21,002 nt of DNA from a virus. Below are positions 3,130 through 21,002 of the stretch, piece by piece; the stretch's first letter is position 1, and each line of letters opens with the position of its first letter. The translations under genes were made by a program, and so were the position numbers. The stretch is taken from positions 1 to 21,002 of the IMG/VR virus record IMGVR_UViG_3300049810_000566. One strand, written 5' to 3'. The notes beneath the pieces were generated by a model that saw nothing but the letters and a program-made list of their open reading frames with translations, was not told where the DNA came from and did not search any database.

Positions 3130-4007
3130 TGATACCAAATAGTAATATTGATTATTACGGAGATCAAACTCGATGGTTTATTGGTACAGCTATTGACATT
3201 AATGATCCATTAGAAATGGGTAGAGTTAAAGTGCGAGTTTATGGTATTCATAGCGCTGACACTGGAGACATACCGCTTGGTGCATTACCATGGGCTCAAG
3301 TAGTAACACCTATTACTGAAGGTGGTAGTAGTGGTATAGGTGCAAATACTGGCATAAAACCAATGGCTCAAGTATACGGCATATTTTTAGATGGTAAAAA
3401 TTCGCAGTTACCATTAATTTTAGGATCTATACCTAAATTTGAACCTGTACATATTAATCAGACAGAATCAAACTTTACTAGAGACGAGATTCCTAGTCGG
3501 CCCGATGGAAGTCCAGCAACTCGCAATGTAATAGCAGCTTCTACTCTCGATGATGAAAAATTAATTGGTAGTGATAATAAAGAAAAGTGTTTTAATTTCT
3601 TTATATCAGACGAAGTACCCGAAAGATTTTTATCACATCAAGCTGCAGGTATTGTGGGTAATTTAATTGTAGAGAGTGGTAACACAGTAGATCCACTTGC
3701 TAAAAATAAAGGTGAAGGATCATTTGGTATTGCACAGTGGAATCCAGCAACCGAAAGATTAACAAATCTATATTCATTTGCACGAAGAAATAATTTACCA
3801 CCTGAAAGTCTATATGTGCAACTTCAGTATATAATACATGAATTATATAAACATTCATATTTTGGTTTGGCCAAATTGCGGGCTGCAGAAGATGTAAAAA
3901 CAGCGTCAAATGTATTTGAGCAATATTACGAAAGACCAGCTAAAGGCAGTTCTTTACGAAGAGTTGCTGCATCAAGAGAACTATTAGCTAAGATGGATAC
4001 AGTATGA
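3129..4007 (+). CDS. 5: Baseplate hub/spike protein gp5-like: OB-fold plus tail lysozyme (non-T4 type)
   Basis: Residues about 12-105 match the T4 gp5 N-terminal OB domain: RWFIGTAIDINDPLEMGRVK, then LPWAQVVTPITEGGSSGIG and VYGIFLDGK. This domain docks the spike on the gp27 hub. The C-terminal half (about 155-290) is not the T4 GH24 lysozyme. It looks like the phage tail lysozyme family (Phage_lysozyme2, PF18013): GIVGNLIVESGNTVDP with likely catalytic Glu182, then GSFGIAQWN (200-205) and a helical end (LYVQLQYIIHELYKHSYFG). It probably cuts peptidoglycan during tail contraction. The protein has 292 residues against about 575 in T4 and lacks the C-terminal beta-helix, which seems to be supplied by the gene at 5818. 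AGGTGA lies just before the ATG. The stop overlaps the next start as ATGA. Confidence 0.85.
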   Translation: MIPNSNIDYYGDQTRWFIGTAIDINDPLEMGRVKVRVYGIHSADTGDIPLGALPWAQVVTPITEGGSSGIGANTGIKPMAQVYGIFLDGKNSQLPLILGSIPKFEPVHINQTESNFTRDEIPSRPDGSPATRNVIAASTLDDEKLIGSDNKEKCFNFFISDEVPERFLSHQAAGIVGNLIVESGNTVDPLAKNKGEGSFGIAQWNPATERLTNLYSFARRNNLPPESLYVQLQYIIHELYKHSYFGLAKLRAAEDVKTASNVFEQYYERPAKGSSLRRVAASRELLAKMDTV

Positions 4008-5821: not shown

Positions 5822-7332
5822 GTTACGAAATAGATTTAGATGAAAATTCTGGCACAATAGAGAATGATGGCTTTAAAGATCCTAAAAAAGTCTTTCCTCG
5901 TAAAGCGTATATGGGCCAAGCTACTACTAACTTTGCAGCCCGTGGCATAAAGAGAAATAACCTTTATATTGGTGGTGGTCATGTTGCATTAGATTTGGGA
6001 TTACGTGAAGGTCCAATATCTCAGTATCCTCTTAATCAGGTAAGAGAATCTATTAGTGGACATGTGACAGAAATTGATGATACTCCAGGCAATGAGCGCA
6101 TGTTATTTAAGCATAAGACTGGTGCAGGTGTAGAGTTTCGCGCAGATGGCACAGTAATTGTCTCATCAGTTAATAATACAATTCGAGTTTCTGGCGGAGA
6201 TGAGAAAGTAATTATTGAAGGTAATGGAGAACTTTTCTATAATGGTAACTTAAAATTAAATGTAGCCGGTGATTTTGATTTAAGTGTTGGTGGTAATTAT
6301 AATATTACTACAGGCGGAGACAAAGTTGATAATATTAAAGGCGGTGTACGTCAGACAATTACTAAAAACCTTGAGTCAACTATCATTAAAAATAAAACAG
6401 AATACGTAGCTGGTAGTATGTCAGAAACTATACTCAAAGATAAAAATTCTATTACAAAGGGTGCATCTTCTGAATTTGTAGAAGGTGATAAAGAAATCTT
6501 TGTAGGATATAAAGATCCAGATGATGGTACTGGCGATTTGGTTGGAGATTTTATTATTACGACAGCTAACACATTTACAACAACATCTGATAATATCAAT
6601 GTGTTAGCGAGAGATTTAACTGCAGTTGGAGATGAAGGTATTATTGGTGGCACTAATATCATTATGCATAACTATAACATGTATACTGGTCATTCAGTTG
6701 ATATTGGTGATACAATGACTGTACCTACGATTTATAATGATACACAGGTTACTAGTGGTCATATGAATATTCCTGTTGTATATGGTGATTTGCAAGGTAC
6801 TGCAACTCAGGCGATGGTATCCAATGAAGCAGGACTTCATCCATCTAGTGGTGCTCATGCCGGCGCGGGATATGGTTACACAGCTGCAACTAACACTACA
6901 GCAGATATTCCTGTAGATGCGACAACTCGAGTACTTGACGGAACAAACTCAACCACAGCAGTAACACGAGTTGATCATGATGGCGCTGACGAGTATTTGC
7001 ATAAAGGTAATTTAGGTATTCGAAATGTACGTATTGATATTAGTGATGATTTGAAAGATGCAATTGATAAAACAACTCCATATGGTGACTTATCATCTCG
7101 TAAATTAAATACACCTGAGATTAGAGCTAAATTAAGAGATGCAGCAAATATGAAAAATACAGACTTCACAAGCGCGCAAAGTAACGAAGGAAAGTTATCT
7201 GCATCATATGCAGTTCAAACACCAGATCCCTTTGAAGTTGGTAGAGCTATGAATGAAAAAGATACCAAAGTACGTGGTGTCAATGGCTTTCCAAACTCTA
7301 AGGGTGTTGGAACAAAGACGGTGACAAAGTAA
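5818..7332 (+). CDS. Beta-helical spike protein (stand-alone gp5C/VgrG-tip-like)
   Basis: The 504-residue protein has a middle section, from about residue 100 to 300, of short alternating beta segments rich in G, N, D, T and V. Examples are NLKLNVAGDFDLSVGGNYNI and GSMSETILKDKNSITKGASS. This is the pattern of the T4 gp5 C-terminal beta-helix and VgrG tips, where a trimer of such chains forms a needle. No lysozyme or OB-fold is visible. After residue 300 the sequence is looser, with a VYGDLQGTATQA segment, then a Thr/Ala-rich linker and a charged C-terminus (about 400-504) that I do not recognise. By position and composition I infer that it forms the membrane-piercing needle that T4 makes as part of gp5. 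It overlaps the preceding gene as ATGA and the next as TAATG. Confidence 0.7.
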   Translation: MSYEIDLDENSGTIENDGFKDPKKVFPRKAYMGQATTNFAARGIKRNNLYIGGGHVALDLGLREGPISQYPLNQVRESISGHVTEIDDTPGNERMLFKHKTGAGVEFRADGTVIVSSVNNTIRVSGGDEKVIIEGNGELFYNGNLKLNVAGDFDLSVGGNYNITTGGDKVDNIKGGVRQTITKNLESTIIKNKTEYVAGSMSETILKDKNSITKGASSEFVEGDKEIFVGYKDPDDGTGDLVGDFIITTANTFTTTSDNINVLARDLTAVGDEGIIGGTNIIMHNYNMYTGHSVDIGDTMTVPTIYNDTQVTSGHMNIPVVYGDLQGTATQAMVSNEAGLHPSSGAHAGAGYGYTAATNTTADIPVDATTRVLDGTNSTTAVTRVDHDGADEYLHKGNLGIRNVRIDISDDLKDAIDKTTPYGDLSSRKLNTPEIRAKLRDAANMKNTDFTSAQSNEGKLSASYAVQTPDPFEVGRAMNEKDTKVRGVNGFPNSKGVGTKTVTK

Positions 7333-7925
7333 TGGCAACTTTTAATATTGATCCAGCATATAATCCAGAACGAGCAGGTAAAATAACTCCATACACAAAG
7401 CTTGGACCAGGAATTACAATGGCTAAATTTTTAGGTGGCTATGGTTCTGCAGGAAATATGAATCATTTAACTAATGATACTGATAGATTAGAATTAGCCA
7501 AAAATTATTCTATACATGCAAGTCTTATGCGTAAGATACAAACAAATCAACATACTTTTAATAATCATAGAATGGTTGTAGTAGAAGGTTTATATAAACC
7601 TGCTGATAATGAAGAAATGACTATTGACGATATTAATTTTTTAAAATCAAAAGGAAGAGCAGTCGTATATGAACTACGTGGTTTAGATGGTCTTATATCA
7701 AAAGAGAAAACATTTGATGCAGCAGTTTATCTCAAATCAAACTCTGAGTTTGAAAAACTTATTTTAGGTTATGATAAATTCAATACCGATGGAAGTATGA
7801 CTACACAATTGACTATTATAACACCTGTTATTATACCATCATGGGAAGTAACTTATAAAAATGCATTAGAAACAAGATACAATCATAGCGTTTTAACTAC
7901 TGGCGAGCTGCAAGAATTATTATAA
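7332..7925 (+). CDS. Unrecognised protein between spike and gp25
   Basis: I do not recognise this 197-residue protein. It has no signal peptide, membrane segment or clear catalytic motif. The first half is soluble-looking, with GPGITMAKFLGGYGSAGNMN (about residues 25-44). The second half alternates charged and hydrophobic segments, with EEMTIDDINFLKSKGRAVVY and TTQLTIITPVIIPSWEV. The start overlaps the spike stop as TAATG, so it is co-translated with the spike gene and is probably a virion or assembly protein. Its stop codon lies inside the late promoter of gp25, making it the last gene of the upstream unit. A 16-base perfect palindrome sits within it at 7586-7601. Confidence 0.6.
   Translation: MATFNIDPAYNPERAGKITPYTKLGPGITMAKFLGGYGSAGNMNHLTNDTDRLELAKNYSIHASLMRKIQTNQHTFNNHRMVVVEGLYKPADNEEMTIDDINFLKSKGRAVVYELRGLDGLISKEKTFDAAVYLKSNSEFEKLILGYDKFNTDGSMTTQLTIITPVIIPSWEVTYKNALETRYNHSVLTTGELQELL
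7586..7601. repeat. 16-base perfect palindrome inside a coding region
   Basis: AGGTTTATATAAACCT is identical to its reverse complement. It lies within the 197-residue gene, about 330 bases upstream of the gp25 late promoter. With no loop it is a poor RNA hairpin. A palindrome this long is expected roughly once in a few such windows by chance, so its function is unproven. Confidence 0.4.
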
Positions 7926-8394: not shown

Positions 8395-10236
8395 ATGGCT
8401 ACTACAATTAAATCATCAGATTTAGATTTTGAAAATATTAAAGGAAGATTAAAAACCTATTTTCAAGCTAAACCCGAATATGCTGATTATGATTTTAATG
8501 CGGCTGGTCTAAATAATATCTTAGATGTTCTAGCCTACAATACTCATGTAAATGGACTTACAGCCAACTTTGCATTGAATGAAGCTTTTCTTAACACAGC
8601 TCAACTACGAAGTTCAGTTGTATCTCATGCTGAGGCTTTAGGTTATGATGTTCGATCTAAGGTTGCATCGCGGGCTTTACTTACTATAACATTTAACCTA
8701 ACTGGTGTTACGAATAGGCCAACTACAGTTTTAGTTCCTCGCGGATTAACATTTAGTACACAAATTGATAGTATCTCATATACGTTTAGAACATTAGAAA
8801 CGTATACGGCTAGAGATGATGGCACTGGAAATTATACTCTTGAAACTTCTGCTGGATCAACTGATATTCCAGTGTTTGAAGGTAAAGAAATGACAAAAAC
8901 ATTTCTTGTAGGAGAAAAAGAAGAACGTCAGATCTATGTTATACCTGACGAAAACATGGATAAATCTACAGCAATTATTGAGGTATACGACACTGCAAGT
9001 TCGTCAAACTTTACTAGCTATTCACCAGTAAAAGATGCAGTTCGCATTACACCTGATTCTGAATTATTTACTATTCGTGAATCACCTAACGGATACTTCG
9101 AAGTAAACTTTGGTGATGGTATTTCTTTTGGTAAATCACCAGAACCTGGTAATAAAATTGTCATCACATATCTTTCATCTGGTGGACCAACTGGTAATGA
9201 TGGCGCAGTATTTACACCTACTAGCACTGTTAATGTATTAGGAGTTGTATATCCTACATCTTGCGTAACAGTTTCAGTATCAACTGGTGGTGCTGAAAAG
9301 CAATCGATCGAATCAATTAAAAACTTAGCGCCATTTGCATATGCTACGCAACAACGTCTAGTTACATCTCTCGATTACAAAGCTACAATACAAAGTAATT
9401 ATACAGATATTCAAGATGTAACTGTATGGAGTGGAGATCAAAACGTACCAATTGATTATGGCGCAGCCTACGTTTCTATTAAATATAGCAGTGGAACACC
9501 GCAAAGTACAAAGACACAAATAGAAAATAGTATTGTAAATAACTTTACAGACAATCTATCAGTGATGTCTATTACCACTAAGTTTGTTGAACCTATTGAA
9601 GTATTTTTAGAATTAAATACTGTATTTAACTTTGACCCTGCGTTAACTGGAAGAACTTTAGCTTCAGTAGAACAAGATATATACAATTTTCAAACTAGTT
9701 ATTTTGCAAATAATCTAGGAACGTTTGATGCTGTTTTTCGTAGATCAAACATGCTCACAGAAATCGATGCATTTAGTGCTGCAATCTTATCATCACGATC
9801 TGATGTGCGAGCGCAACTAAGATTTGTTCCTACAATAGGTCAAGTTACATCTCATCAACTTAAATTCCCAATGCGAATCGCAGATCCCGATGATGTTGAA
9901 GCACAAATAATTAGTGACACATTCCAATTTAGAGGAGTAGTTGCTCAGCTACGTAACAAATTAAGCGATACAAAGTTGCAAATATATGATCTTTCTGGTA
10001 ATGTACTTGCAGATAACGTTGGCCAATATAACGCTGCGACAGGCGTAGTATCTGTTATTGGATTTAATCCACAAAAGCTTTTATTTGGATATAACTATAT
10101 TAAAGTATCTGTTTATCCAGAGAATCAAAGCTTTGTAAAACCGTTACGTAACTATGTTCTTGGCCTTGATCCTAATAATTCTTCTGCATCTGCAATTATT
10201 GATAGACAAACAACGACACTTGAAGTTGATAACTAA
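8395..10236 (+). CDS. 6: Baseplate wedge subunit gp6 (baseplate J family)
   Basis: This 613-residue protein matches gp6/baseplate J. In T4, gp6 dimers form the inner ring that holds the wedges together and triggers contraction. The N-terminus has the family pattern: FQAKPEYADYDF, then GLNNILDVLAYNTHVNGL with ANFALNEAFLNTAQLRSSVV (residues about 22-85). A beta-rich section follows, with VPRGLTFST and FEVNFGDGISFGKSPEPGN, then the PFAYATQQRLVTSLDYKA segment that precedes the J-type domain. T4 gp6 has about 660 residues. It sits between gp25 and the gp7-like gene, as in the conserved wedge core. Its stop overlaps the next start as TAATG, and no strong ribosome-binding site is visible for the downstream gene. 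Confidence 0.92.
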   Translation: MATTIKSSDLDFENIKGRLKTYFQAKPEYADYDFNAAGLNNILDVLAYNTHVNGLTANFALNEAFLNTAQLRSSVVSHAEALGYDVRSKVASRALLTITFNLTGVTNRPTTVLVPRGLTFSTQIDSISYTFRTLETYTARDDGTGNYTLETSAGSTDIPVFEGKEMTKTFLVGEKEERQIYVIPDENMDKSTAIIEVYDTASSSNFTSYSPVKDAVRITPDSELFTIRESPNGYFEVNFGDGISFGKSPEPGNKIVITYLSSGGPTGNDGAVFTPTSTVNVLGVVYPTSCVTVSVSTGGAEKQSIESIKNLAPFAYATQQRLVTSLDYKATIQSNYTDIQDVTVWSGDQNVPIDYGAAYVSIKYSSGTPQSTKTQIENSIVNNFTDNLSVMSITTKFVEPIEVFLELNTVFNFDPALTGRTLASVEQDIYNFQTSYFANNLGTFDAVFRRSNMLTEIDAFSAAILSSRSDVRAQLRFVPTIGQVTSHQLKFPMRIADPDDVEAQIISDTFQFRGVVAQLRNKLSDTKLQIYDLSGNVLADNVGQYNAATGVVSVIGFNPQKLLFGYNYIKVSVYPENQSFVKPLRNYVLGLDPNNSSASAIIDRQTTTLEVDN

Positions 10237-11321
10237 TGGCATCTAACGAATCCCAAAAACATTACGATAGGATTGCTATCAATTTTAGACGTGGTCTTAT
10301 AGATGAAGTATTACCTGAATATTTCCTCGAAGACTATCCTAATTTAGTTACATTTCTAGAAGGTTACTACGAGTTTTTAGATTCAGACACTAACTTTGAT
10401 GGGATTATACACGAACTTAATACAATTAAAGATGTTGAAGATGCAAGCTTAGCTCGTCTTGATCAAATGTTTGATACCCTTGCCCTTGGAATATCAGCTG
10501 GTCGATTTAAGTTTCCGCGCGAAGCTATACGAAACTTTGGTAATTTTTTTAGAGTTAAGGGATCTCAATATTCTGGTGAAGGTTTCTTTAGAGCTTTCTT
10601 TGATGCTGAAGTCGAAATTAAATTTCCTAAAGATGAATTATTTAATGTAGGCGAATCTTTTATTGGTACTGAATACAATAAAAGAATTCAAGACGGTGGC
10701 GTATATCAAATATTTTCTATTCTTATCAAAGGTCCTTTATCATTTAAAGACTGGGAACAATTATGGAGAAAGTATGTTCATCCTACTGGGTTCCATCTTG
10801 CAAATGAGGTATCTATTGAAGGCATAGATACTATTAAAATGGTGACTGATGAATCTATACCAGATCCATTTAAAAATATTTTCTTTGTTATTGATAGCGC
10901 TGCAGCAATTCAAATTCATAGTCCACCTCAAGCTCAGGGCGAAGTATCTCATCTTAATAACACTAGTTATGGACCTAAAGCTCTTATTCAAAATAAGTTT
11001 CTTATTAATGATCCGCAGTTTAGAACAAATCCATATCGACTTATTAATATGTTTGCAGATTCTGATGCTGCAGTTGCAGTCGGTAGTAAACTATATCCAA
11101 CAATTCAAGATGTTATGGGTGTTTATAAGAATCTTAAAGAATGGTCGGATTGGGGTGTAACTTATGACAACCTTGATTCTGCGAGTGTGGCTATTACGTT
11201 TGATAATAGTTTTGAAACATATGATATGAGAAAGTTCGATACATATAGAAGAATATATATCGAAGAAGATTACGTAGCGCGCGGCTACCACGTAGATAAT
11301 AAACTACCGTCAAATGTCTAA
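10236..11321 (+). CDS. Short baseplate wedge protein, gp7/gpI-like by position
   Basis: The 361-residue protein follows gp25 and gp6, the place of gp7 in T4 and of gpI in P2-type tails (gpW-gpJ-gpI). Visible features are an N-terminal helical segment, PNLVTFLEGYYEFL (residues 35-48), an aromatic-rich middle (FGNFFRVKGSQYSGEGFFRA), and WEQLWRKYVHPTGFHLANEV (172-191), a pattern I associate with tail protein I-like wedge proteins. T4 gp7 is far longer (about 1032 residues), so if this is gp7 it is reduced to a core. The name rests mostly on gene order. After residue 200 it is beta/loop-like and unrecognised. The C-terminus is acidic and aromatic (IYIEEDYVARGYHVDNK). It is the last gene before the second late promoter. 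Confidence 0.62.
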   Translation: MASNESQKHYDRIAINFRRGLIDEVLPEYFLEDYPNLVTFLEGYYEFLDSDTNFDGIIHELNTIKDVEDASLARLDQMFDTLALGISAGRFKFPREAIRNFGNFFRVKGSQYSGEGFFRAFFDAEVEIKFPKDELFNVGESFIGTEYNKRIQDGGVYQIFSILIKGPLSFKDWEQLWRKYVHPTGFHLANEVSIEGIDTIKMVTDESIPDPFKNIFFVIDSAAAIQIHSPPQAQGEVSHLNNTSYGPKALIQNKFLINDPQFRTNPYRLINMFADSDAAVAVGSKLYPTIQDVMGVYKNLKEWSDWGVTYDNLDSASVAITFDNSFETYDMRKFDTYRRIYIEEDYVARGYHVDNKLPSNV

Positions 11322-11371: not shown

Positions 11372-13201
11372 ATGGCACAACAAATAGTAAATACAGGTAC
11401 AGTTGGTAACGATGGTCTCGGTGACGATCTTCGAACTGGTGCTACTAAAATCAATGCTAACTTTACTGAAATCTATTCTAATATTACTGCTTTATCACTG
11501 CAGCTAAATTTAGCAAGTGTTAATAGTAACGGTATTGGTTTTGGTGGCGATGGCATTCTTTTTGATGGAGCTACTAAAGATTCATTTACGACTGTCACTC
11601 GCCTTGTTCCTGCAGATCCTACACAAATTAATGTTGTTACCATACCAGATAGCACAGGTACATTATCTTTAATTAGCGATATTAAAAATGTGGCAGATAG
11701 AGACTATGTCTTAGGAATTCGTGGTTTAGGAACTGCGCTATTAGATTCTAATACTGCTATTCAAACAATGTTCGCCCGAGGATTTCTTGATTCTGCCCGT
11801 ATGGTAAGAATTTCACTAGACTCTGCAGACGTAACAGCTTATATCGATAGTGATTATGTCCAACAACGACAAACCGGTGGATTAGATTCTGATCGTGCTT
11901 TAAATCTGTTTTTAACTCCTATACAAATTGATTCTAATTTTGATTCAAGTTTTGCGCGAGACATTGCTCCTCGAGATGTAAGACTGGATGCACTTGATGC
12001 AGCTATTGATGCGATAACTGGCTTTACGACTGACAATGTTCTTGAAGATTCTGCGCAATCTAATGGCGGTGCAGGTCCAACTAACTTATACTTTACGACC
12101 GCTCGAGCAAATTCAGCTATCGATACTAGAGTTGATATAGGCTTTATCAATAATTTAAATGTAGATGCTGAAACACTTGGTGGTCAAACATTAGCCAATA
12201 TTCAAGCTGATTATCAAGATGCTACCGAAGTACAAACCCTAATAGACAATAACTTTGATGCCGTTGGCAGAGATTTTGTACCTGCCACTGACGAAACATA
12301 CGATCTTGGTACAGCTACTAAAAAATGGAAAGACTTGCATCTAAGCGGCACTACTATCTTCCTTGGTGGTGGTGAACTTAAATTTGAAAACAGTGAATTT
12401 AGATTTGGTGGTGGCACATTAGGTATTGATGATGCTCTTGTTCTTGATCCAACACAAAGGCTCTTCTTTGATTCTGCAGCGGGTGCACCTAATATTACTA
12501 AGTCAGATGCTGTGCAACCAAACGGTTTGGTGATTAGCGCTAATGCTCTTTCATTACAAACAGTAGATGATGTAAGCGCAGATTGGTTTGTAAGAACAAA
12601 TACACCAGCAGGTGGTACAATGTCTCGCTTCGGTGAAGGTGGTTTGGTCATGCTACCACATAACACTGATACCGAGAGAACACAATATCACACAAACGCA
12701 TTCTATAGTACAACATACCGTAAAGGTGCAATGCACTATAACACGGATCAAAACAAATTTGAATTTGCAGACTCAGATGGTTGGTATGCAATCGATCGAG
12801 CTGCAGTAGCTAGTGCAGCAACTAATGCACAGTATCTTCAGTTTGGATACAATGCAGTATTAAGTGGAGCTGGAAGTGCAACAAGTGTTTTAGGTCCTAA
12901 TGGCTCTAGTATATTGACAGGTATTGTAATGCCAGTTGCAGGTACAGTAACACATATCACAGTATCATCACAAACAAATGCATTCTCTGGTGGTAGCTTA
13001 ACGCATTCAGCATCATTATATAAAAACAACTCATATCAATCAGGCATTTCGGTAGAAGTAACATCTTCAGGTGCAGTAGGATTATCTGGCACGTTCAATA
13101 CAGCGTTTGCCGCAGGAGATAGATTGAAAGTCAACCTCGATAATGACACAGGATTGGATACCGAAGATCATATCGTAATAGTAAGATTTGTAGAAAGTTA
13201 A
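11372..13201 (+). CDS. Fibre/adhesin-like virion protein
   Basis: The 609-residue protein has the look of a tail fibre or baseplate-attached adhesin. The N-terminus (QIVNTGTVGNDGLGDDLRTG, then KINANFTEIY) is a start I associate with marine phage structural proteins. Residues about 120-190 are rich in DS dipeptides (FLDSARMVRISLDSADVTAY). The middle has TNLYFTTARANSAIDTRV and TYDLGTATKKWKDLHLSGTT (about 309-328), patterns seen in phage fibres. The C-terminal 125 residues, from about 485, form a Gly/Ser/Thr-rich region (GIVMPVAGTVTHITVSS) that looks like a beta-sandwich tip. I infer a trimeric fibre with a C-terminal recognition domain. It has its own late promoter and ribosome-binding site. 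It sits between the gp7-like gene and gp8, where T4 has no gene. T4 gp9 or gp10 equivalence cannot be shown. Confidence 0.65.
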   Translation: MAQQIVNTGTVGNDGLGDDLRTGATKINANFTEIYSNITALSLQLNLASVNSNGIGFGGDGILFDGATKDSFTTVTRLVPADPTQINVVTIPDSTGTLSLISDIKNVADRDYVLGIRGLGTALLDSNTAIQTMFARGFLDSARMVRISLDSADVTAYIDSDYVQQRQTGGLDSDRALNLFLTPIQIDSNFDSSFARDIAPRDVRLDALDAAIDAITGFTTDNVLEDSAQSNGGAGPTNLYFTTARANSAIDTRVDIGFINNLNVDAETLGGQTLANIQADYQDATEVQTLIDNNFDAVGRDFVPATDETYDLGTATKKWKDLHLSGTTIFLGGGELKFENSEFRFGGGTLGIDDALVLDPTQRLFFDSAAGAPNITKSDAVQPNGLVISANALSLQTVDDVSADWFVRTNTPAGGTMSRFGEGGLVMLPHNTDTERTQYHTNAFYSTTYRKGAMHYNTDQNKFEFADSDGWYAIDRAAVASAATNAQYLQFGYNAVLSGAGSATSVLGPNGSSILTGIVMPVAGTVTHITVSSQTNAFSGGSLTHSASLYKNNSYQSGISVEVTSSGAVGLSGTFNTAFAAGDRLKVNLDNDTGLDTEDHIVIVRFVES

Positions 13202-13211: not shown

Positions 13212-14564
13212 ATGCCAGCTATTGTAACCGACGCACTTAGAACATTACTCGCTAGACAGTTTTTTGATCAGTTTGCTAATCAAACTGCACGCTACTATAT
13301 TGGTATTGGTAGATCAGAAATTTGGGATAGCTCTGATGCAGTTCCTACACCTCAAAATACACCAGGTGAAGTAGCAGCTGCGCGTGCACAAATGCAATCA
13401 GTTAAGAAAGTGCAAGCTACTTCTCTAGTTGTTCCGCGTAATAACTGGTCAAACGGTACACTCTATTCACAATATGATAATACAGTGTCAGGTTACCCGA
13501 CTGAACCATATTATGTTATGAATGATAATAACAACGTTTATATTTGCCTTGAAACTGGCAGAAATAACGCTGGTGTTGCAGTAGCATCAACTGTAGAACC
13601 AACTGGATCAAATAATGATTCGTTTAGGCTTGCTGATGGCTATGTATGGAAATTCTTATTTACTGTAAGTGCATCTCGTGCAAATAGCTTTATGTCTTCT
13701 AACTTCTTGCCAGTTAAAAAGCAAGATCCTACAGATTCATCATCTACTGGCATTCAATTAAAACAAGAAGAAATTCAAGACACCGCATTGGTTGGCGCAG
13801 TCACATCAGTAGTTATTACCAACGTTGGTTCTGGCTATACCTCAAATCCTAATGTACAGATTATTGGTGCAGGTGGATTAGGTACTGGTGCAGCTGCTAG
13901 AACAAGAATTGATTCAGCAACAGGCACATTAGCATATATTAAAATGATTGATAGTGGTACAACTCAAAAACTTGGTAGTGGATATACCCGTGCTGAAGTT
14001 GTAATTAGTGGAGGTGGCGGTCAAGGAGCTAAAGCAAGAGCAATACTCGGCCCAGACTCTGGCATTGGCGCTGATGCACGAGTTGATTTAAAGTCAGCAG
14101 CTATTATGTTCCATTCGAGAATTGAAGGCACTGATAGTAACTTTATTATTGATCAAGATTTTAGACAAGTAACACTTATTAAAGATATTAAAGATGAGAA
14201 CGGTGTTATTTTTACTGGTACTACTGGTAATACTCTTGCTAAAATGACCCTTGCAAGTACAGTACAAGCGTTTACTAAAGATAAGATTATCCGTGGTCAG
14301 ATCACACTTGCTGAAGCTTACATTGATAATATTGACTCAGATGAAATTTATTATCATCAAACTATTGAAACAGGATTTACAGCTTTCCAAGACGGAGAGG
14401 TAATTAACGAAACTAATGGTGTTGGTCAAGGTATTATTGATTCTGCAGTAATTCCGCCTGAAGTTGATCCAAACACCGGTGATATATTATACATAGATAA
14501 TAGAGCTGCTGTTGCTCGATCTAACGTACAAGCAGAAGATGTAAAAGTTATCATTCAGTTCTAA
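13212..14564 (+). CDS. 8: Baseplate wedge subunit gp8
   Basis: The 450-residue protein matches gp8, a wedge component that binds gp7 and helps hold gp10 in T4. The N-terminal part is diagnostic: an N-terminal helix, then RYYIGIGRSEIW (27-38) and YYVMNDNNNVYICLETG (about 99-115), followed by GYVWKFLFTVS. T4 gp8 has about 334 residues. The extra length contains two copies of a GSGYT beta repeat (around 197-285) with GAGGLGTGAAARTRI and GGGGQGAKARAIL. C-terminal to these, three short segments resemble one another (residues about 331-345, 357-371 and 394-408). Ile/Val-rich strands end the protein. It is co-transcribed with the fibre gene and has a good ribosome-binding site. Confidence 0.88.
   Translation: MPAIVTDALRTLLARQFFDQFANQTARYYIGIGRSEIWDSSDAVPTPQNTPGEVAAARAQMQSVKKVQATSLVVPRNNWSNGTLYSQYDNTVSGYPTEPYYVMNDNNNVYICLETGRNNAGVAVASTVEPTGSNNDSFRLADGYVWKFLFTVSASRANSFMSSNFLPVKKQDPTDSSSTGIQLKQEEIQDTALVGAVTSVVITNVGSGYTSNPNVQIIGAGGLGTGAAARTRIDSATGTLAYIKMIDSGTTQKLGSGYTRAEVVISGGGGQGAKARAILGPDSGIGADARVDLKSAAIMFHSRIEGTDSNFIIDQDFRQVTLIKDIKDENGVIFTGTTGNTLAKMTLASTVQAFTKDKIIRGQITLAEAYIDNIDSDEIYYHQTIETGFTAFQDGEVINETNGVGQGIIDSAVIPPEVDPNTGDILYIDNRAAVARSNVQAEDVKVIIQF
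13794..14066 (+). repeat. Two GSGYT beta repeats inserted in gp8
   Basis: The encoded protein has two related units, each with beta strands, a GSGYT turn (residues 206-210 and 255-259, 49 residues apart) and a Gly/Ala-rich end (GTGAAARTRI; GQGAKARAIL). They account for most of the extra length of this gp8 over T4 gp8, which suggests an inserted surface module. Confidence 0.65.
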
Positions 14565-14573
14565 GGATACGAA

Positions 14574-17500
14574 ATGCCTAATACGTTCACTACTAGCTCA
14601 TTTGCTACTACATATAAAGACGATTTTAAAGATAGTGATCACTATCATCGTATCCTATTTAATAGCGGTAAACAACTGCAAGCGCGTGAACTCACGCAAA
14701 TGCAAACTATTATACAAAAAGAAATTGAAAGATTTGGTCGTAATATCTTTAGAGAAGGAGCTTCAGTTGTACCAGGTGGTATGACTGTTAATAACAAGTA
14801 CGAATTTATTAAGATCGCAGCTACTACAAATCTTCCTTCAGATACTTCATCAATGATCGGTGATACATTTACAGGTCAAACTTCAGGAGTTGCGTGTAAA
14901 ATTCTAGAAGTTATACCAGCTACAGGTAGTGATCCTGCAACTATTTATGTTCAGTACACAAATCGTAGTTCAGTGGCAATTAGCGGCGCTGCTATTCGTA
15001 TGTCGCCTGCAGAAAATATTGTTGGTGCATCAAGCGGTGTAACACTTACTGTACAAGCTACTAATACATCTTCTAATAGAGCAATTGGTCGCGGCACCAA
15101 AGCATCTATGCAAACAGGAACATTCTTTACTCAAGGTCATTTTGTGCAAGCAGATGAACAAGAAGTAATGATTTCTAAATATGATTCTGCACCAGACGAA
15201 AATGTTGGATTTGTAGTTAATCAAGACATTGTCACAGTTTCAGACACTTTAGCACTATATGATAATCAAGGTACATTACCTAATCTTACTGCACCTGGTG
15301 CTGATAGATATCGCATTCAATTGACTCTTACTACAGAATCAGAAAAAGACGCTGCAGACACATTTGTATTCTATGGAAAGATACGTGATGGATTATTGAT
15401 CGAAACCGTAACAGGTACAGATGAGTATAATAAGATTGCTCAATTTGATGCTATTAAGACACAAGAAATTAATGGTGACTTTATTAAGAAGCCGTTTAAG
15501 ATTCATTATGATTCTGCTTCAGGTAGCGAATTTAATATTAATATTTCTCCTGGCACAGCTTATGTAAATGGATATAGAGCTAATAAATCAGATCCAACAG
15601 TTATTAAAGTTGATAAAGCTTTAACTGCAGTTACTTTGCAGAATGAGCCTATCTCAGCTGAATTTGGTAACTACGTTATTATCAATGAGATTAATGGTCT
15701 ACCCGATATTGAAGACTTTGAGGAACAAGATTTGCGTGATGATAGCGGATTCGGTGGATCTACTATTGGTAAAGCACGAGTAAAATCTGTAGAAGAAGAT
15801 GGTACTAATTGGCGGTATTATTTGATGGACATTCAAATGAATGCTGGCGAAAACTTTAGAGATGTTAAATCACTTGGAACATCGGCTACTTCATTTGGTA
15901 ACCTAGAACTTGAAAATACTATTGCAGTTATTAAAGATGCTGCAAATAATAATTTGCTCTTTGGTTTTCCGCAATCTCGTGTAAAAAGTATTTCTGATGT
16001 TGTACTGACAACTCAACGGCGATTAACTGCAACTGCCGATGCCAACGGTAATGCAACATTTCCTGGACTTGGAACTAACGAAGCGTTTGAAAATAGTAAT
16101 CAATGGGTATTTTCTCGAGTTGCTGGTGGATCATTTTCGCCTAGTGGCATTACTGGTAACGGTACACAAGCAGCTTCTATTACTGGCGCGCCAGCAAATA
16201 CTGCAATCGAAGTTATCGCTCAAGTTCAAAAAACTGGTATTTTAAGAAATAAAGTACTAACCGAAACAACTGTCACATCTACAGTAAATACTCCTGCAAC
16301 TGGTGCACCATTTGTGTCACTCGGTAAAGCAGACATATACTCAGTTGATAGAATTCGTGCAGTTGATTCTGACGGTGCTGATTTATTTGCAGACTTCCTT
16401 GCTGATAACGGAGCACGAGATAATTTCTATGATGTCGGTAAGATTATTCTAAAATCAAATGCAAAGAGTCCAGTTGGTAATATCTTTATACGATTTAAGT
16501 ATTTCGATCATACTACACCTGGTCATTACTTCGCAGCGAACTCATACACAGGTCAATTAGATTACGGTGATATTCCAACCCATACCTTGGCCGATGGTGT
16601 TACTAGAATTCCATTGACTGACGTAATTGATTTTAGATCTCGTAAAGATGACGCTGGAGTAGGATTTAGCGCAGGTACAGCCCGTGTAAATGAATTACCA
16701 GTAAATACAAGTCTTATTACAATTGATGCTGAATATTATATGCCTCGATTTGATAAACTAGTTGTTGATCAAGAAGCAAATCTTAGCATTGTTACAGGTG
16801 CACCATCGCTTACTCCTCAGTATGCACCTACTCCTCAAAACACCTTAGAGCTTTATCGAATTGAAATGAATGCAGGCTCAAAAGATGAAGAAGACATGGT
16901 GATGCGGAATATTGAATCTAAGGGATTCACAATGTCCGATATTCAGCGTCTCGAGGAAAGAGTAGATCGATTAGAAGAAGCTACAGCTCTTAGCTTACTT
17001 GAAGTTGATGTTAATAACTTAGCAGTATTTGACTCTGCAGGAAATGATCGTTCAAAGTCAGGATTCTTGGTCGATAACTTTAGTGACCACTCATCATCAT
17101 TTACTAATAATCCTGAGTTTAGATCATCAATTGATCCGCTAGATCGTGTACTTCGGCCAACATTTAACGAAGAAAATGTTAGACTTATCTACGATTCAGA
17201 TCTTTCGACTAATGCTATTCTAAAAGGTGATAACGTTTATATTAAATATACTGAACAGACGTTTATCGATCAGCCAGAAGTATCACAAACAATTAATATT
17301 AATCCATTTGCGGTCATTACACATCAAGGAAACTTAACACTTTCACCGTCATCTGATGAATGGAAAGAGACAGTATACATTGCACCACGAGTTATTAATG
17401 GTGGTATACGACTTAACACTAATCAAGCCTTCTTGTTTAACAACTGGAATTGGGCATGGCAAGGTAATAACGTAAATAACTTACGATTAGGTCAAGTTAC

Positions 17501-19619
17501 AAATTCTCGTACTACACGAGCTGGTAACCGTATTACTACTCAGCGTAATAGAGTTGTACAAGACGAAACTATCCGTCAAGTAATTGGTGATCGTGTAGTT
17601 AATATCGCTATCATACCATTCATGAGATCTAAAAAGATCTTCTTTAGAGCAGAAGGTCTAGCACCGAATGTTCAAATGTGGGCGAGATTTGATGGTGTAC
17701 CTGTAAATAGCTGGGTACGTGCCGAAGCTTTCCAAAGATTTGCGGCTACAGAAGCAGAATATGGTAATAGAACCAATAACATCACTCAACACCCTGAAAA
17801 TCCATCTACGTTATTTAGTAATGCTAATGGAGTAGTAGAAGGTTCATTCTTTATTCCATCTCAGCGAACAGGACTAAGATTTAGAACTGGTGAACGTGAG
17901 TTTAAGCTTATGGATATTACTGGTACAAATGAACGTGATGCACTGTCAATTGCAAAAGAAACATTTGAAGCGAACGGCGTGATTGAAACACGTCAACGCG
18001 ATATCTTATCAACTCGTCATATTACTGTACGTGGACAAACATCAGTACGTATTCACGATCCAGTTGCTCAGTCATTCTTTGTAGATAAGAAAGATGGCAT
18101 CTATCTAACTCGACTGCGGTTATTCTTTGCATCAAAAGATAGCACAGTTCCTGTTCAAGTAGAAATTCGGCCGATGGTTAATGGCCACCCATCATCTGAT
18201 ACTGTGTTGCCTGGTTCAATTAAATTTATGAATCCAGCAAATATTATTACTACTAACGATGCAACTAGTCCATCAGACTTTGTGTTTGACGAGCCAGTAT
18301 TCTTACAACCATTTACTGAGTACGCATTTGTTGTAAAGGCTGAATCAACTAATTATAATATTTACATCGCTGAGACAGAGCAGTTCTTCTTAAATTCAAC
18401 TGAAAAGAAAATTACTAAGCAGCCTACATTAGGTTCGTTGTTCTTATCACAGAACTCTACCACGTGGGAACCAGCACAAACAAAAGATGCTATGTTCAGA
18501 CTTTTCCATGCTCAGTTCGACACAGCCGGTGCAACTGTAGTATTAGAAAATGCTCCTATATCTACTAAGCTTGCGCCAACTAATCCAGTTATTTTTGATT
18601 CATCAAGTAGTCGTATTATCATTAATCAACCGAATCATGGCTTTACATCTGGTGATGAAGTTTCTATAACTGGACTTGATTCTGCTACAAACTATGGACA
18701 GAATCTCTTAGGCGAAGATGTGATGGGTGCAAGAACAATCATCGATGTTGATGAAGATAACTTTACATTCACTGCTGGTGGTGGTAAATCAAACAACGCC
18801 GGAAGATTTGCATTTGGTGGTAACGATGTAATCACAACTCGTAACATGATGTTCGAAACAGTTGTACCGTTCCTTGAGCCTTTACAGCCTCAGAATACTG
18901 GCATTTCTCTTGCTGGTAAATTTACTTCTGGTAAATCTCATGCTGGCACAGAAACTCCATTCTTAAAGGATGTAGTTGATGTAGATTTAGAATTAAGAGA
19001 AAACAATGCATTCACAGTTCCAAAAATGATAGGAAATCGTGGCCTTGAAATTGCTAATTTAGGAGCAGCAGTTAAATCTGCTACACTATCTGTAGGATTA
19101 TCAACAGCAAATCCAGATGTGTGCCCAATGCTTGATATGCAAAGAGCTTCAATGTTCTTAATTCATAACCATATTGATCAGCAAGATTCGGCAAATGCAC
19201 CAGTTAGTGCACCGCCACATAATACACCGATCTTCTTTGGAGATGAAACAACTGTTACTTCTGGTAGTCACATTGGTAAACACGTAGTGCGACCAGTTAC
19301 TCTTGAAGAAGCTGCTATCGGTTTGAAAATTCTTATCGGTGCACATCGTCCATCAGTTGCAGATTTTGATCTCTACTATAAAGTTGCTAACGATGGAGAA
19401 AACTTCAACGACATTGCGTGGACAGAAATTGCGAAAGAAGAAAGTTTGCCATCTGATGAGAATCCTAATGTGTTTAGGGATTATAGATATTTAGTCGGTG
19501 GACAAAATGGTCTATCAGCATCATTTACTCGATTTACAATTAAGATTGTAATGAAATCATTAAGCTCGGCAAAACCACCGATATTTAGAGATTTACGAAT
19601 CATCGCGATGGCTGTATAA
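14574..19619 (+). CDS. Very large baseplate/tail structural protein, DUF4815-type
   Basis: The 1681-residue protein begins with a pattern I associate with DUF4815 (PF16075) of marine T4-like phages: HYHRILFNSGKQLQARELTQ (23-42), then IERFGRNIFREGASVVPGG. A beta motif follows (GDTFTGQTSGVACKILEV, 96-113). The middle is beta-rich. A short coiled coil lies at about 787-812 (IQRLEERVDRLEEATALSLL). Next comes NINPFAVITHQGNLTLSPSS with a Trp/Asn-rich stretch (NNWNWAWQGN, near 955), then IPFMRSKKIFFRAEGLAPNV. The last 120 residues end in FTIKIVMKSLSSAKPPIFRD, a C-terminal domain I associate with large phage structural proteins. Membrane segments and enzyme motifs are not visible. It is almost one quarter of the window. 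By position after gp8 it probably forms an outer baseplate part or side fibre, where T4 has gp9-gp12. Exact role unknown. Confidence 0.7.
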   Translation: MPNTFTTSSFATTYKDDFKDSDHYHRILFNSGKQLQARELTQMQTIIQKEIERFGRNIFREGASVVPGGMTVNNKYEFIKIAATTNLPSDTSSMIGDTFTGQTSGVACKILEVIPATGSDPATIYVQYTNRSSVAISGAAIRMSPAENIVGASSGVTLTVQATNTSSNRAIGRGTKASMQTGTFFTQGHFVQADEQEVMISKYDSAPDENVGFVVNQDIVTVSDTLALYDNQGTLPNLTAPGADRYRIQLTLTTESEKDAADTFVFYGKIRDGLLIETVTGTDEYNKIAQFDAIKTQEINGDFIKKPFKIHYDSASGSEFNINISPGTAYVNGYRANKSDPTVIKVDKALTAVTLQNEPISAEFGNYVIINEINGLPDIEDFEEQDLRDDSGFGGSTIGKARVKSVEEDGTNWRYYLMDIQMNAGENFRDVKSLGTSATSFGNLELENTIAVIKDAANNNLLFGFPQSRVKSISDVVLTTQRRLTATADANGNATFPGLGTNEAFENSNQWVFSRVAGGSFSPSGITGNGTQAASITGAPANTAIEVIAQVQKTGILRNKVLTETTVTSTVNTPATGAPFVSLGKADIYSVDRIRAVDSDGADLFADFLADNGARDNFYDVGKIILKSNAKSPVGNIFIRFKYFDHTTPGHYFAANSYTGQLDYGDIPTHTLADGVTRIPLTDVIDFRSRKDDAGVGFSAGTARVNELPVNTSLITIDAEYYMPRFDKLVVDQEANLSIVTGAPSLTPQYAPTPQNTLELYRIEMNAGSKDEEDMVMRNIESKGFTMSDIQRLEERVDRLEEATALSLLEVDVNNLAVFDSAGNDRSKSGFLVDNFSDHSSSFTNNPEFRSSIDPLDRVLRPTFNEENVRLIYDSDLSTNAILKGDNVYIKYTEQTFIDQPEVSQTININPFAVITHQGNLTLSPSSDEWKETVYIAPRVINGGIRLNTNQAFLFNNWNWAWQGNNVNNLRLGQVTNSRTTRAGNRITTQRNRVVQDETIRQVIGDRVVNIAIIPFMRSKKIFFRAEGLAPNVQMWARFDGVPVNSWVRAEAFQRFAATEAEYGNRTNNITQHPENPSTLFSNANGVVEGSFFIPSQRTGLRFRTGEREFKLMDITGTNERDALSIAKETFEANGVIETRQRDILSTRHITVRGQTSVRIHDPVAQSFFVDKKDGIYLTRLRLFFASKDSTVPVQVEIRPMVNGHPSSDTVLPGSIKFMNPANIITTNDATSPSDFVFDEPVFLQPFTEYAFVVKAESTNYNIYIAETEQFFLNSTEKKITKQPTLGSLFLSQNSTTWEPAQTKDAMFRLFHAQFDTAGATVVLENAPISTKLAPTNPVIFDSSSSRIIINQPNHGFTSGDEVSITGLDSATNYGQNLLGEDVMGARTIIDVDEDNFTFTAGGGKSNNAGRFAFGGNDVITTRNMMFETVVPFLEPLQPQNTGISLAGKFTSGKSHAGTETPFLKDVVDVDLELRENNAFTVPKMIGNRGLEIANLGAAVKSATLSVGLSTANPDVCPMLDMQRASMFLIHNHIDQQDSANAPVSAPPHNTPIFFGDETTVTSGSHIGKHVVRPVTLEEAAIGLKILIGAHRPSVADFDLYYKVANDGENFNDIAWTEIAKEESLPSDENPNVFRDYRYLVGGQNGLSASFTRFTIKIVMKSLSSAKPPIFRDLRIIAMAV

Positions 19620-19825
19620 TGAGAAAGTTTGCAAAGGTAGAAGGATCACAAACTTTAGTTAGAGACTTAAATACAGGTGCTATACTAAATACAGATAAAT
19701 CTACTCTCGATAAAGCAAGAGAAGCAAAAGCTTTAAGGCAAAAGAAAAATCAAGAATTTGACGAACTTAAAGGCGAAGTCAAAGAAATGAAAGAAATGTT
19801 AACTAAACTGATAGAGAAACTATAA
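19619..19825 (+). CDS. Small coiled-coil protein
   Basis: This 68-residue protein begins with a short beta-like start (MRKFAKVEGSQTLVRDLNTG) and ends in a long charged helix with leucine and methionine spacing typical of a coiled coil (FDELKGEVKEMKEMLTKLIE). The gene is real by context: it overlaps both neighbours by one base (TAATG at 19617-19621 and 19823-19827) and has the same strand and composition. Its function is not recognised. Possible roles are a trimerisation adaptor or fibre chaperone for the large protein before it or the fibre-like proteins after it. That is inference only. Confidence 0.72.
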   Translation: MRKFAKVEGSQTLVRDLNTGAILNTDKSTLDKAREAKALRQKKNQEFDELKGEVKEMKEMLTKLIEKL

Positions 19826-20379
19826 TGGCACGTTTTATACAAGTCAGCTTAACTAATCCTATAGGAACATGGGTTCAAAAGACAAATGCACTAAGCGGCT
19901 TTGTAGGTGATCTTGATGATCTAAATCCAGCAATTAGACAAATTGTTCCAGCCGTTGACTCTAATGTAGTTACAGTTTTGAACTACCTTGATTCATCTCT
20001 CTCGCAGATGCAAGATAGTGTGAATATGGCATATATGAAACTGGATTCAGGTGATTTCGGTTTAATTCGGGTCGATAGCGCTATTATTGGTTACTTACAA
20101 GTAGATAGTGGTTACTTTGGCTATTTACAAGCGAACAGCGCAGACATTACTTATCTTACTGCAGATAGCGCAACAATTAACGGCGAACTCAGAGTTGAGC
20201 GATTAGTAGTATTTGGCACAGATTCTAACAATTCTGTAGTGCTACCTTATGGTGCTATAGATAGTGCAGAGATCCATGATAGCGCTGTAAGATCTAGACA
20301 TTTCCAGAACTTAGTAACGACTCTTATTCTAGATTCTCAAGGACAAACATTAAAGACAATATATTCACCAGGTAAATAG
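19825..20379 (+). CDS. Decapeptide-repeat fibre-like protein
   Basis: The 184-residue protein has an N-terminal part (1-70) with a likely helical segment (VLNYLDSSLSQMQDSVNMAY). Five tandem ten-residue repeats follow at residues 73-122, with DS or NS at 74, 84, 94, 104 and 114 and a following GYLQ-type turn (VDSGYFGYLQ). The C-terminal part is DS-rich and ends in LVTTLILDSQGQTLKTIYSPGK. Strict ten-residue spacing suggests a short beta-helix or beta-prism shaft of a trimeric fibre, probably a baseplate or tail decoration. No enzyme motif or signal peptide is visible. It overlaps the preceding gene as TAATG, and the next gene starts 3 bases after its stop. Confidence 0.75.
   Translation: MARFIQVSLTNPIGTWVQKTNALSGFVGDLDDLNPAIRQIVPAVDSNVVTVLNYLDSSLSQMQDSVNMAYMKLDSGDFGLIRVDSAIIGYLQVDSGYFGYLQANSADITYLTADSATINGELRVERLVVFGTDSNNSVVLPYGAIDSAEIHDSAVRSRHFQNLVTTLILDSQGQTLKTIYSPGK
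20041..20190 (+). repeat. Five ten-residue repeats (DS-phased)
   Basis: This part of the 184-residue gene encodes five units of exactly ten residues with consensus [VA]-D-S-[GA]-x-[FI]-x-Y-L-[QT]. The DNA repeats are imperfect, so the units have diverged while the protein period stays exact. That points to selection for a regular fold. Confidence 0.75.
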
Positions 20380-20382
20380 ATT

Positions 20383-21002
20383 ATGACATTACGAAGACCT
20401 TTATATTATACTGATAGTGGCAATATCAAAGAAATGAGTGATATTGAATTAGCTGATGTGCATGCTGAAGCAAAAAGATTCTATCTGAACAATCCACCAG
20501 TACAATTAACAGTAGTTAACAGTGGCGGCAGCTTAGGTAATATTAGTCAATCACAAGTTATTGCTGGTGCAGCCACTAATAACAGTAAATCTGTAAGTAG
20601 AAATAGTCCTGGTGGTATTAGCGTAGAAACTATTAACTATTCTCGTGTTAACCAAACGAAAGCTGCACCTCCGTTTGGAGCTAATGGAAATTTTAATCTT
20701 ACTACACTTAAGGGTAATTTAGGTACTAATTGGCCTGTATTTTATAATGATAGTGGTAATTTTGAACCATTCACTGATTCAGATTTTATAGACACATTTG
20801 CTAATCCTGTAATTCAAGAACTTGGTGCAGCTAATAGTGATCCACTATATGTTATTGGAGAAAGCGCTGGCGTTGTTAGTGGTAGATATACTAAAGTTTC
20901 TAATACTCCAGTTTACACAGATCTTATTGCAAATATATCGGCGTATAATTCAGGCAATTTGCCAGAAACTAAAAGACAAAGTATAACTGTACAAAACTGG
21001 TA
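20383..21002 (+). CDS. Structural protein, 3' end missing
   Basis: An open frame starts at the ATG at 20383 and runs without a stop to the right edge (206 full codons). It begins MTLRRPLYYTDSGNIKEMSD and continues with a helix (IELADVHAEAKRFYL), then PPVQLTVVNSGGSLGNISQS and a Gly/Asn/Ser/Thr-rich beta-like stretch. Later it has DSDFIDTFANPVIQELG and SGRYTKVSNTPVYTD. I associate the RRPLYY start and the SGGSL turn with virion structural genes downstream of the baseplate in marine T4-like phages, but I cannot name it. The start is chosen because it is the first ATG, 3 bases after the previous stop. No strong ribosome-binding site is visible, so coupling is likely. The DSG motif near the start fits the neighbouring fibre-like proteins. 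Confidence 0.7.
   Translation, partial: MTLRRPLYYTDSGNIKEMSDIELADVHAEAKRFYLNNPPVQLTVVNSGGSLGNISQSQVIAGAATNNSKSVSRNSPGGISVETINYSRVNQTKAAPPFGANGNFNLTTLKGNLGTNWPVFYNDSGNFEPFTDSDFIDTFANPVIQELGAANSDPLYVIGESAGVVSGRYTKVSNTPVYTDLIANISAYNSGNLPETKRQSITVQNW

Follow-up and report, generated by a model that had tools for sequence, protein, structure and literature searches.

A DUF4815/VrlC-family protein encoded behind a gp8-like gene

The 1681-aa protein encoded at positions 14574 to 19619 of the viral DNA analyzed here (21,002 bases, referred to as the window) is very probably the tripod, or pyramid, protein of a contractile-tail baseplate with two layers. Its family is DUF4815/VrlC, which also includes proteins of the A511 Gp106 type, the baseplate protein of phi812 and VriC of Ackermannviridae, and it would be their counterpart; it is a new member of a known family with a known kind of role. 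The original prediction had called the role unknown; this does not hold, since the family has been reported as trimeric pyramids of the two-layered baseplate. The gene and its neighbors are as follows.

10236..11321, + strand: short gp7-like wedge protein (HHalign 60.5% to T4 gp7 residues 647-897; PF23786)
11372..13201, + strand: 609-aa protein with a gp9/gp10-type N-terminus, a kept T4-type peripheral protein (PF07880 6e-7; HHalign)
13212..14564, + strand: gp8-like wedge protein and presumed platform, with a match to the BW3 family of Gram-positive phages as well (PF09215 6.2e-9; HHalign; PF25691)
14574..19619, + strand: DUF4815/VrlC-family baseplate protein, 1681 aa, probable tripod (Pfam, PHROGs, phmmer, Foldseek/VIA)
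19619..19825, + strand: 68-aa protein, coiled-coil-like by eye (phrog_473, virion structural protein)

The ORF begins with ATG, takes up 24% of the window and starts 9 bases behind the gp8-like ORF (HHalign 97.3% to T4 gp8), and its stop overlaps the start of the 68-aa protein gene by one base. A DUF4815 protein of about a quarter of the window, right after gp8, had been predicted, and both points were borne out: PF16075 (DUF4815) matched at an E value of 9.3e-55, with 186.4 bits against a cut-off of 30. The PHROGs matches were to four families, phrog_358 and phrog_877 first, none with an assigned function. Relatives were found at 36 viral-contig loci in a first scan, the best being 98% identical, and at no fewer than 583 confirmed places in a second scan of marine virus collections, from which the best 80 were retained. 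Because of these relatives, the ORF is not a chance ORF.

Among 50,697 phage records, 1527 matched the protein. The best named relative was Phage C48C1 (33% over the full length), followed by Pseudomonas phage pf16, the pelagiphages Mosig and HTVC008M (VrlC, ~30-32% identity; the HTVC008M copy has 2001 aa) and then Ackermannviridae VriC/VrlC at ~27% (e.g., CBA120 orf209, residues 14-1680 matched at 27% identity). The name VrlC is used for pelagi- and cyanomyophages (HTVC008M, Mosig, P-SSM3). Listeria phages (54 records) and Bacillus phages were also among the matches; in PMC11406892, Listeria phage A511 Gp106 and Bacillus phage Gp176/Gp120 carry labels (tail fiber/VrlC) that, with these matches, place them in the VrlC/DUF4815 family. 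The link to A511 Gp106 runs through the Listeria matches, the phi812 chain and the cited papers. Against solved structures, phi812 gave the only strong sequence match: phmmer found chain 9euf_0 (8.2e-44) through three collinear stretches, two of them significant alone, and a 10-row profile found the phi812 baseplate chain at 1e-60 and nothing else up to 0.1.

The predicted fold best matches the phi812 baseplate protein

Structure prediction, suggested with the original prediction, was carried out on two halves, and the best match was the phi812 DUF4815 protein. The alignment contained 53 rows (the window and 52 relatives), obtained from 80 sequences (the window and 79 others) by leaving out L006, L037 and L038, applying an 80% identity filter, which left 54, and removing L075 by hand. 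The AlphaFold2 models of residues 1-1172 and 700-1681 had pLDDT values of 77.9 and 79.4 and pTM values of 0.48 and 0.70, respectively. For both models the top three Foldseek matches were phi812 baseplate chains, far ahead of the rest, with best E values of 6.0e-35 (700-1681) and 3.7e-21 (1-1172). In VIA, the 700-1681 model fitted the phi812 pre-contraction chain with Z 29.2 and an rmsd of 4.0 over 559 aligned residues (23% identity), and the fit spanned residue 825 to the C-terminus of both proteins. The 1-1172 model reached Z 15.8 but with an rmsd of 15-23, a poor fit along its length. The phi812 protein has 1152 residues, whereas the 1681-aa protein carries extra domains, including an endosialidase-type barrel.

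The same 700-1681 model was aligned by VIA with two phi812 post-contraction chains at an rmsd of 18.9 (370 and 376 residues), which would be compatible with a domain rearrangement on contraction and is not proof of one. The states of the phi812 structures (PDB 9euf, 9eui, 9euj) were judged by entry titles and alignments, and no paper on the phi812 baseplate structure was among the matches listed in our literature search. Foldseek matches below phi812 (toxins, glycosidases, IBDV VP2 and others) had query-normalised TM-scores of 0.04-0.12 and were set aside, except for Cwp84 and endosialidase, which VIA confirmed over single domains. T4 baseplate chains were not among the 50 matches listed per model, which is no proof of absence.

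Domain organization and conservation

The models and alignments divide the protein into the following parts.

14574..14789, + strand: domain A, residues 1-72, anchor-like N-terminus with a helix at 34-58, most conserved part, putative docking role (AlphaFold2, identity)
14790..15182, + strand: domain B, residues 73-203, beta-rich (AlphaFold2 model)
15183..16697, + strand: domains C-F, residues 204-708, beta-rich body (AlphaFold2 model)
16932..17003, + strand: helix 787-810, heptad-like (I790, L793, V797, L800), possible trimer coiled coil (model; trimer by analogy with A511 Gp106)
17019..17318, + strand: region H, residues 816-915, apparent source of strands for the lectin and jelly-roll folds (pLDDT shift, VIA ranges)
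17319..17984, + strand: domain I, residues 916-1137, Ig/neocarzinostatin-like beta-sandwich (VIA, weak, Z ~8), with a variable-length loop at ~960-1000
17985..18053, + strand: variable linker, residues 1138-1160, gene-split site in some relatives (identity, relatives' ORFs)
18054..18548, + strand: domain J, residues 1161-1325, lectin-like fold, resembling the lectin-like domain of Cwp84 (VIA Z 15.4, rmsd 2.8, 154 aligned)
18555..18857, + strand: domain K, residues 1328-1428, endosialidase-type beta-barrel (VIA against phage endosialidase 1v0e residues 425-504, Z 10.3, rmsd 2.3, 79 aligned, 23% identity; profile match to 4hiz)
18858..19616, + strand: domain L, residues 1429-1681, C-terminal jelly roll (AlphaFold2 model, VIA)

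Mean pairwise identity, computed per domain on the 54 rows, was highest for residues 1-72 (0.70), ranged from 0.36 to 0.53 in the other domains and was lowest in the linker (0.31), whose length varied from 16 to 72 residues in relatives. Several features predicted from the sequence were recovered: the N-terminus is the most conserved part; the central coiled coil, placed at 787-812, corresponds to the predicted helix at 787-810, in which the hydrophobic pattern at 790/793/797/800 is conserved and a coiled coil is possible; and the Trp-rich stretch near 955 contains W958, W960 and W962, all invariant in the 10 rows of alignment A1, of which W962 alone keeps at least 90% conservation across the 53-row alignment A2. 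The FTIKIVMKS segment (residues 1654-1662) does lie among predicted strands. It does not form the end of the protein, as had been proposed, since 19 residues with one more strand follow.

The domain A profile was also found in the proteins of Staphylococcus, Klebsiella and Rhizobium phages and in HTVC008M, Melnitz and C48C1. No profile matches for domains B, D-F, K and L were obtained in the Staphylococcus phage relative. The Klebsiella phage relative contains barrel domain K, and part of its domain L was unmatched.

A head with predicted carbohydrate-binding-type folds

The C-terminus carries carbohydrate-binding-type folds, as predicted by the model: a lectin-like domain and a barrel, through which the protein may bind sugars. 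A profile of the C-terminal part matched endosialidases among solved structures at 0.0084 (4hiz) and weaker. For the K1F enzyme, a preprint describes the sialic-acid site in the beta-barrel and names S460, S468 and G504 there (PMC12632334). As here, A511 Gp106 and the Bacillus phage proteins have carbohydrate-binding-type folds at the C-terminus, which for the Bacillus phage homologues are described as including a Cwp84 match (PMC11406892). The A511 and Bacillus phages differ in having Gram-positive hosts, and the Bacillus proteins are given as ~1170 aa, against 1681 here (PMC11406892). The barrel K profile was found in HTVC008M, C48C1, Melnitz (in two pieces) and the Klebsiella phage, and had no match in the Staphylococcus, Rhizobium and P-SSM3 proteins.

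These folds, together with the annotation "adsorption associated tail protein" in some records of relatives, could point to a primary receptor-binding protein that sets host range. We consider this quite improbable, since most of the head is conserved like the core wedge proteins (J, 0.53 and L, 0.45, against 0.46 for the gp6-like and 0.47 for the gp8-like protein), only K being lower (0.36), and the next two ORFs downstream are more variable (0.31 and 0.34). If, conversely, the lectin-like and barrel domains made protein contacts only, the tripod would be a passive scaffold; a shared fold shows no function, and the head is not hypervariable. This reading has a somewhat better chance but is still unlikely: C-terminal carbohydrate-binding-module folds are described as conserved among Gp106 homologues (PMC11406892), and the pyramids of A511 reportedly rotate towards the cell wall when the phage attaches (PMC9863714, PMC11406892). 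A tripod whose head would probably grip surface sugars is the reading that we prefer.

The head may also include strands that lie ahead of domain I. For residues 830-909, mean pLDDT rose from 47.3 in the model ending at 1172 to 89.2 in the one reaching 1681. VIA alignments with lectin-like chains ran from model residues 191-200 (window residues 890-899) to 614-618, and those with jelly-roll chains from model residues 118-131 (window residues 817-830) to 979-982. Because pLDDT rises in the presence of the head and the VIA ranges begin this early, it appears that both the lectin fold and the jelly roll are completed by strands from ~828-909.

Split genes and the linker

The gene is split in some relatives. 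Six of 111 viral-contig loci contained two ORFs, 80 a single complete ORF and 25 a partial one; the split point was at residue ~1160, just ahead of the lectin domain. Six further split loci (L129-L134) and the more distant L146, L147 and L149-L151 came up when the second ORF of a split locus was used as the query. Close inspection of six split loci showed that the second ORF starts at an ATG of its own, preceded by purine-rich sequence, and that extra sequence, glycine-rich or otherwise, lies at the end of the first ORF. Since the split precedes the lectin domain and strands would be borrowed from 828-909, the two chains of split-gene relatives would have to fold together.

The recurrence of the split was followed on a tree of 98 of 103 rows, in which three changes are needed to explain the split state, at least 2 of them imposed by well supported branches; the three changes could also represent one gain and two losses, and L149, one of the split rows, sits on a long branch. 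The five rows L019, L042, L047, L058 and L107 were without one of the three domains in order. Also left out were L126-L128 (on the contigs of L017, L018 and L025), L138, L141, L145, L146, L148, L150-L152 and the 25 partial loci, and the window was represented by its 98% relative L006.

Several first-ORF ends carry additional sequence. The first ORF of L015 closes with a Cys-initial Hint-like (intein/hedgehog-type) stretch (7236-7715), as does that of L022 in the corresponding part, and a small phrog_17252 gene follows. The Hint reading of this tail stays unproven, since its Pfam values (0.039 and 0.056 in L015, 0.034 and 0.07 in L022) fell below the cut-offs; in the PDB it matched PI-SceI at 0.15 and NEQ068, which we take to be an intein, at 0.33-0.37, with an unrelated enzyme between them at 0.2. 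Separately, among the viral-structure matches of the tripod model, one bears the annotation "Hint domain containing protein". The five split relatives L129-L133 share a long extension at the C-terminus of the body, where the first ORF ends, that includes a Cys-Cys motif, and the L129 extension, the member searched, had no PHROGs match. In Prochlorococcus phage P-SSM3 (L116, 12001-19217), a VrlC-type gene without an annotated CDS lies in two frames (603 and 1834 aa), representing either a split or a sequencing error.

Gene neighborhood and the presumed platform

The gp8-like gene was directly upstream in all 109 testable loci, and the family of the 68-aa protein adjoined the DUF4815 gene in 79 of 83, the neighbor profiles having been built from the same loci, so that both counts describe one virus group and no independent sample. 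In the four misses, the 68-aa gene lay 85-98 bases before the computed end, just outside the 80-base limit. HTVC008M has the same order of gp6, gp7-position gene, gp8, VrlC and small protein. Rhizobium phage RHph_I1_9 also has a gp8-like protein upstream (HHalign 100%), and in Staphylococcus phage phiIPLA-C1C a BW3 gene (PF25691 2.5e-66) directly precedes the DUF4815 gene. The DUF4815 gene of the Klebsiella phage relative lies beside tail fiber genes and not after a gp8 gene. As a candidate gp107-type follower, the 68-aa protein showed no clear link to its positional counterpart downstream of the phiIPLA-C1C DUF4815 gene (HHalign 8.8%).

The BW3 family (PF25691) matched the gp8-like protein of the window with 28.5 bits (cut-off 27) and HTVC008M gp8 with 33.2 bits, and T4 gp8 stayed below the cut-off (21.1 bits). 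HHalign of the gp8-like profile with one BW3 sequence gave 15.3% (E 0.0017), against 0.1-3.3% for five other phiIPLA-C1C proteins. From these profile matches we conclude with moderate confidence that gp8 and BW3 are one family and the likely platform. An account of the A511 BW3 member describes it as a proximal fiber part that attaches Gp106 and Gp108 (PMC11406892). Another account has the Gp106 trimers attached via gp104 and not directly to gp105/BW3 (PMC9863714), which weakens the case for docking on gp8.

Other parts of the tail operon were noted in passing. A gp5-type needle appears in pieces at 3129-7332: an OB and lysozyme domain lies at 3129-4007, and 5818-7332 encodes a part of the gp5 C-terminal type (phrog_430 6.7e-28, with Pfam under its cut-off); a 605-aa ORF between them had no Pfam or PHROGs match. 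The two ORFs at 19825-21002 (184 aa, and an open one that has 418 aa in L006) are candidate host-recognition proteins without a PHROGs match. Past the operon, L006 has a run of minus-strand ORFs (17543-24907), perhaps like the host-recognition islands that are described downstream of VrlC in pelagiphages (PMC7029224).

Relationship to T4 gp7 and gp9-gp12

The original prediction proposed that one chain might replace T4 gp9-gp12, and suggested a comparison with T4 gp7, gp10, gp11 and gp12. Its placement of the protein in the baseplate agrees with our results; the one-chain replacement does not. With profiles from related loci aligned to single T4 proteins, HHalign gave the DUF4815 protein 0.1, 0.1, 0.7 and 0.2% with gp9, gp10, gp11 and gp12 and 0.2% with gp7, indicating no detectable relation, and controls in the same run worked (gp6-like to gp6, 100%; gp8-like to gp8, 97.3%). 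PF07880 was absent from the Pfam hits of the 1681-aa protein. Homology to T4 gp7, gp9, gp10, gp11 and gp12 was therefore rejected, the highest value being the 0.7% for gp11.

A gp9/gp10-type protein is, moreover, encoded upstream. The first ~44 residues of the 609-aa protein matched T4 gp10 residues 1-43 (96.6%) and gp9 (84.9%) in HHalign, and its relatives were upstream in 61 of 66 testable loci. P-SSM3 too has a gp9 upstream of gp8 (PF07880 1.1e-11), and C48C1 has a longer gp9/gp10-type protein there; PF07880 had no match in HTVC008M or in two of six virus records. Because the window itself encodes such a protein at 11372-13201, gp9/gp10 is not replaced by the 1681-aa protein. Homologs of gp9-gp12 just downstream would have spoken against the original prediction; the 184- and 206-aa ORFs there gave no indication of being gp12 (HHalign 0.1% and 0.2%), and the gp9/gp10-type protein lies upstream instead.

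The T4 gp11 family was not found in six related virus records (IMG/VR fragments, searched without a positive control), nor in the DUF4815-bearing phages P-SSM3, C48C1, RHph_I1_9, phi1_146021, HTVC008M and Melnitz, where the T4 control matched. The gp12 receptor-binding family was likewise not found in seven of seven relatives, with T4 matching as control, and DUF4815 was present in seven of eight records and missing only from T4. These absences rest on few whole genomes, the IMG/VR records being fragments. Across phage records, 1364 matched T4 gp11 and 1527 matched DUF4815; counted separately, the two sets are led by different organism names, with Escherichia, Klebsiella and Salmonella in both. 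Ackermannviridae are described as being without gp9-gp11 and gp12 (PMC11721090). Since gp11 and gp12 were not found in the relatives tested, the tripod could do their job without kinship to them. A single chain that fuses or replaces gp9-gp12 fits this absence and the position after gp8; given the HHalign values, the gp9/gp10-type protein upstream and a best structural match to phi812 DUF4815, it is nevertheless highly improbable, and its gp9/gp10 part is already largely refuted.

Substitution of gp7 has been put forward for VrlC in pelagi- and cyanomyophages, both groups being described as having no T4 Gp7 (PMC7029224). It is very unlikely in the window. The profile reached only 0.2% with T4 gp7, and the P-SSM3 gene annotated "similar to gp7" lies upstream of its VrlC copy. 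The short gp7-like protein at 10236-11321 (HHalign 60.5%, a moderate value; T4 gp7 is without its PF23786 match) makes the substitution doubtful here.

Proposed role of the tripod

Our model follows what is reported for A511, in which pyramids of Gp106 trimers make the baseplate appear double-layered and turn towards the cell wall (PMC9863714, PMC11406892). The conserved N-terminus would dock peripherally, with the gp8/BW3 wedge protein as the most likely platform, and the beta-rich body and short coiled coil would hold a trimer. The lectin-like domain, barrel and jelly roll of the head (828-909 and 1161-1681) would probably grip surface sugars. By analogy with A511, first contact by other fibers would let the trimeric pyramids swing from up-facing to cell-facing, and the swung tripods would strengthen attachment and help to trigger contraction. 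They would work rather like the deployable short tail fibers of T4 gp12, a likeness in proposed role only (a second-step adhesin) with no sequence relation or kinship. Related proposals exist: VriC of Ackermannviridae is said to resemble the A511 and phi812 baseplate proteins and may form prongs (PMC11721090), two-layered baseplates were predicted for pelagi- and cyanomyophages because of VrlC (PMC7029224), and a similar prediction concerns an Agrobacterium phage (PMC6630229).

We tentatively extend the model, with somewhat less than even confidence. Borrowed strands would complete the tip, split body and head would fold in trans, the linker would serve as a slot for new domains (one of them Hint-like), and a tripod on gp8/BW3 would be the counterpart of T4 gp11-gp12 across contractile phages.

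A tripod in a baseplate that keeps its gp9/gp10-type and gp7-like proteins speaks against replacement of gp9-gp12 and of gp7. It would offer a structural target in the cultured phages HTVC008M, Mosig and Melnitz, and the split genes would allow a specific test of split-adhesin reassembly.
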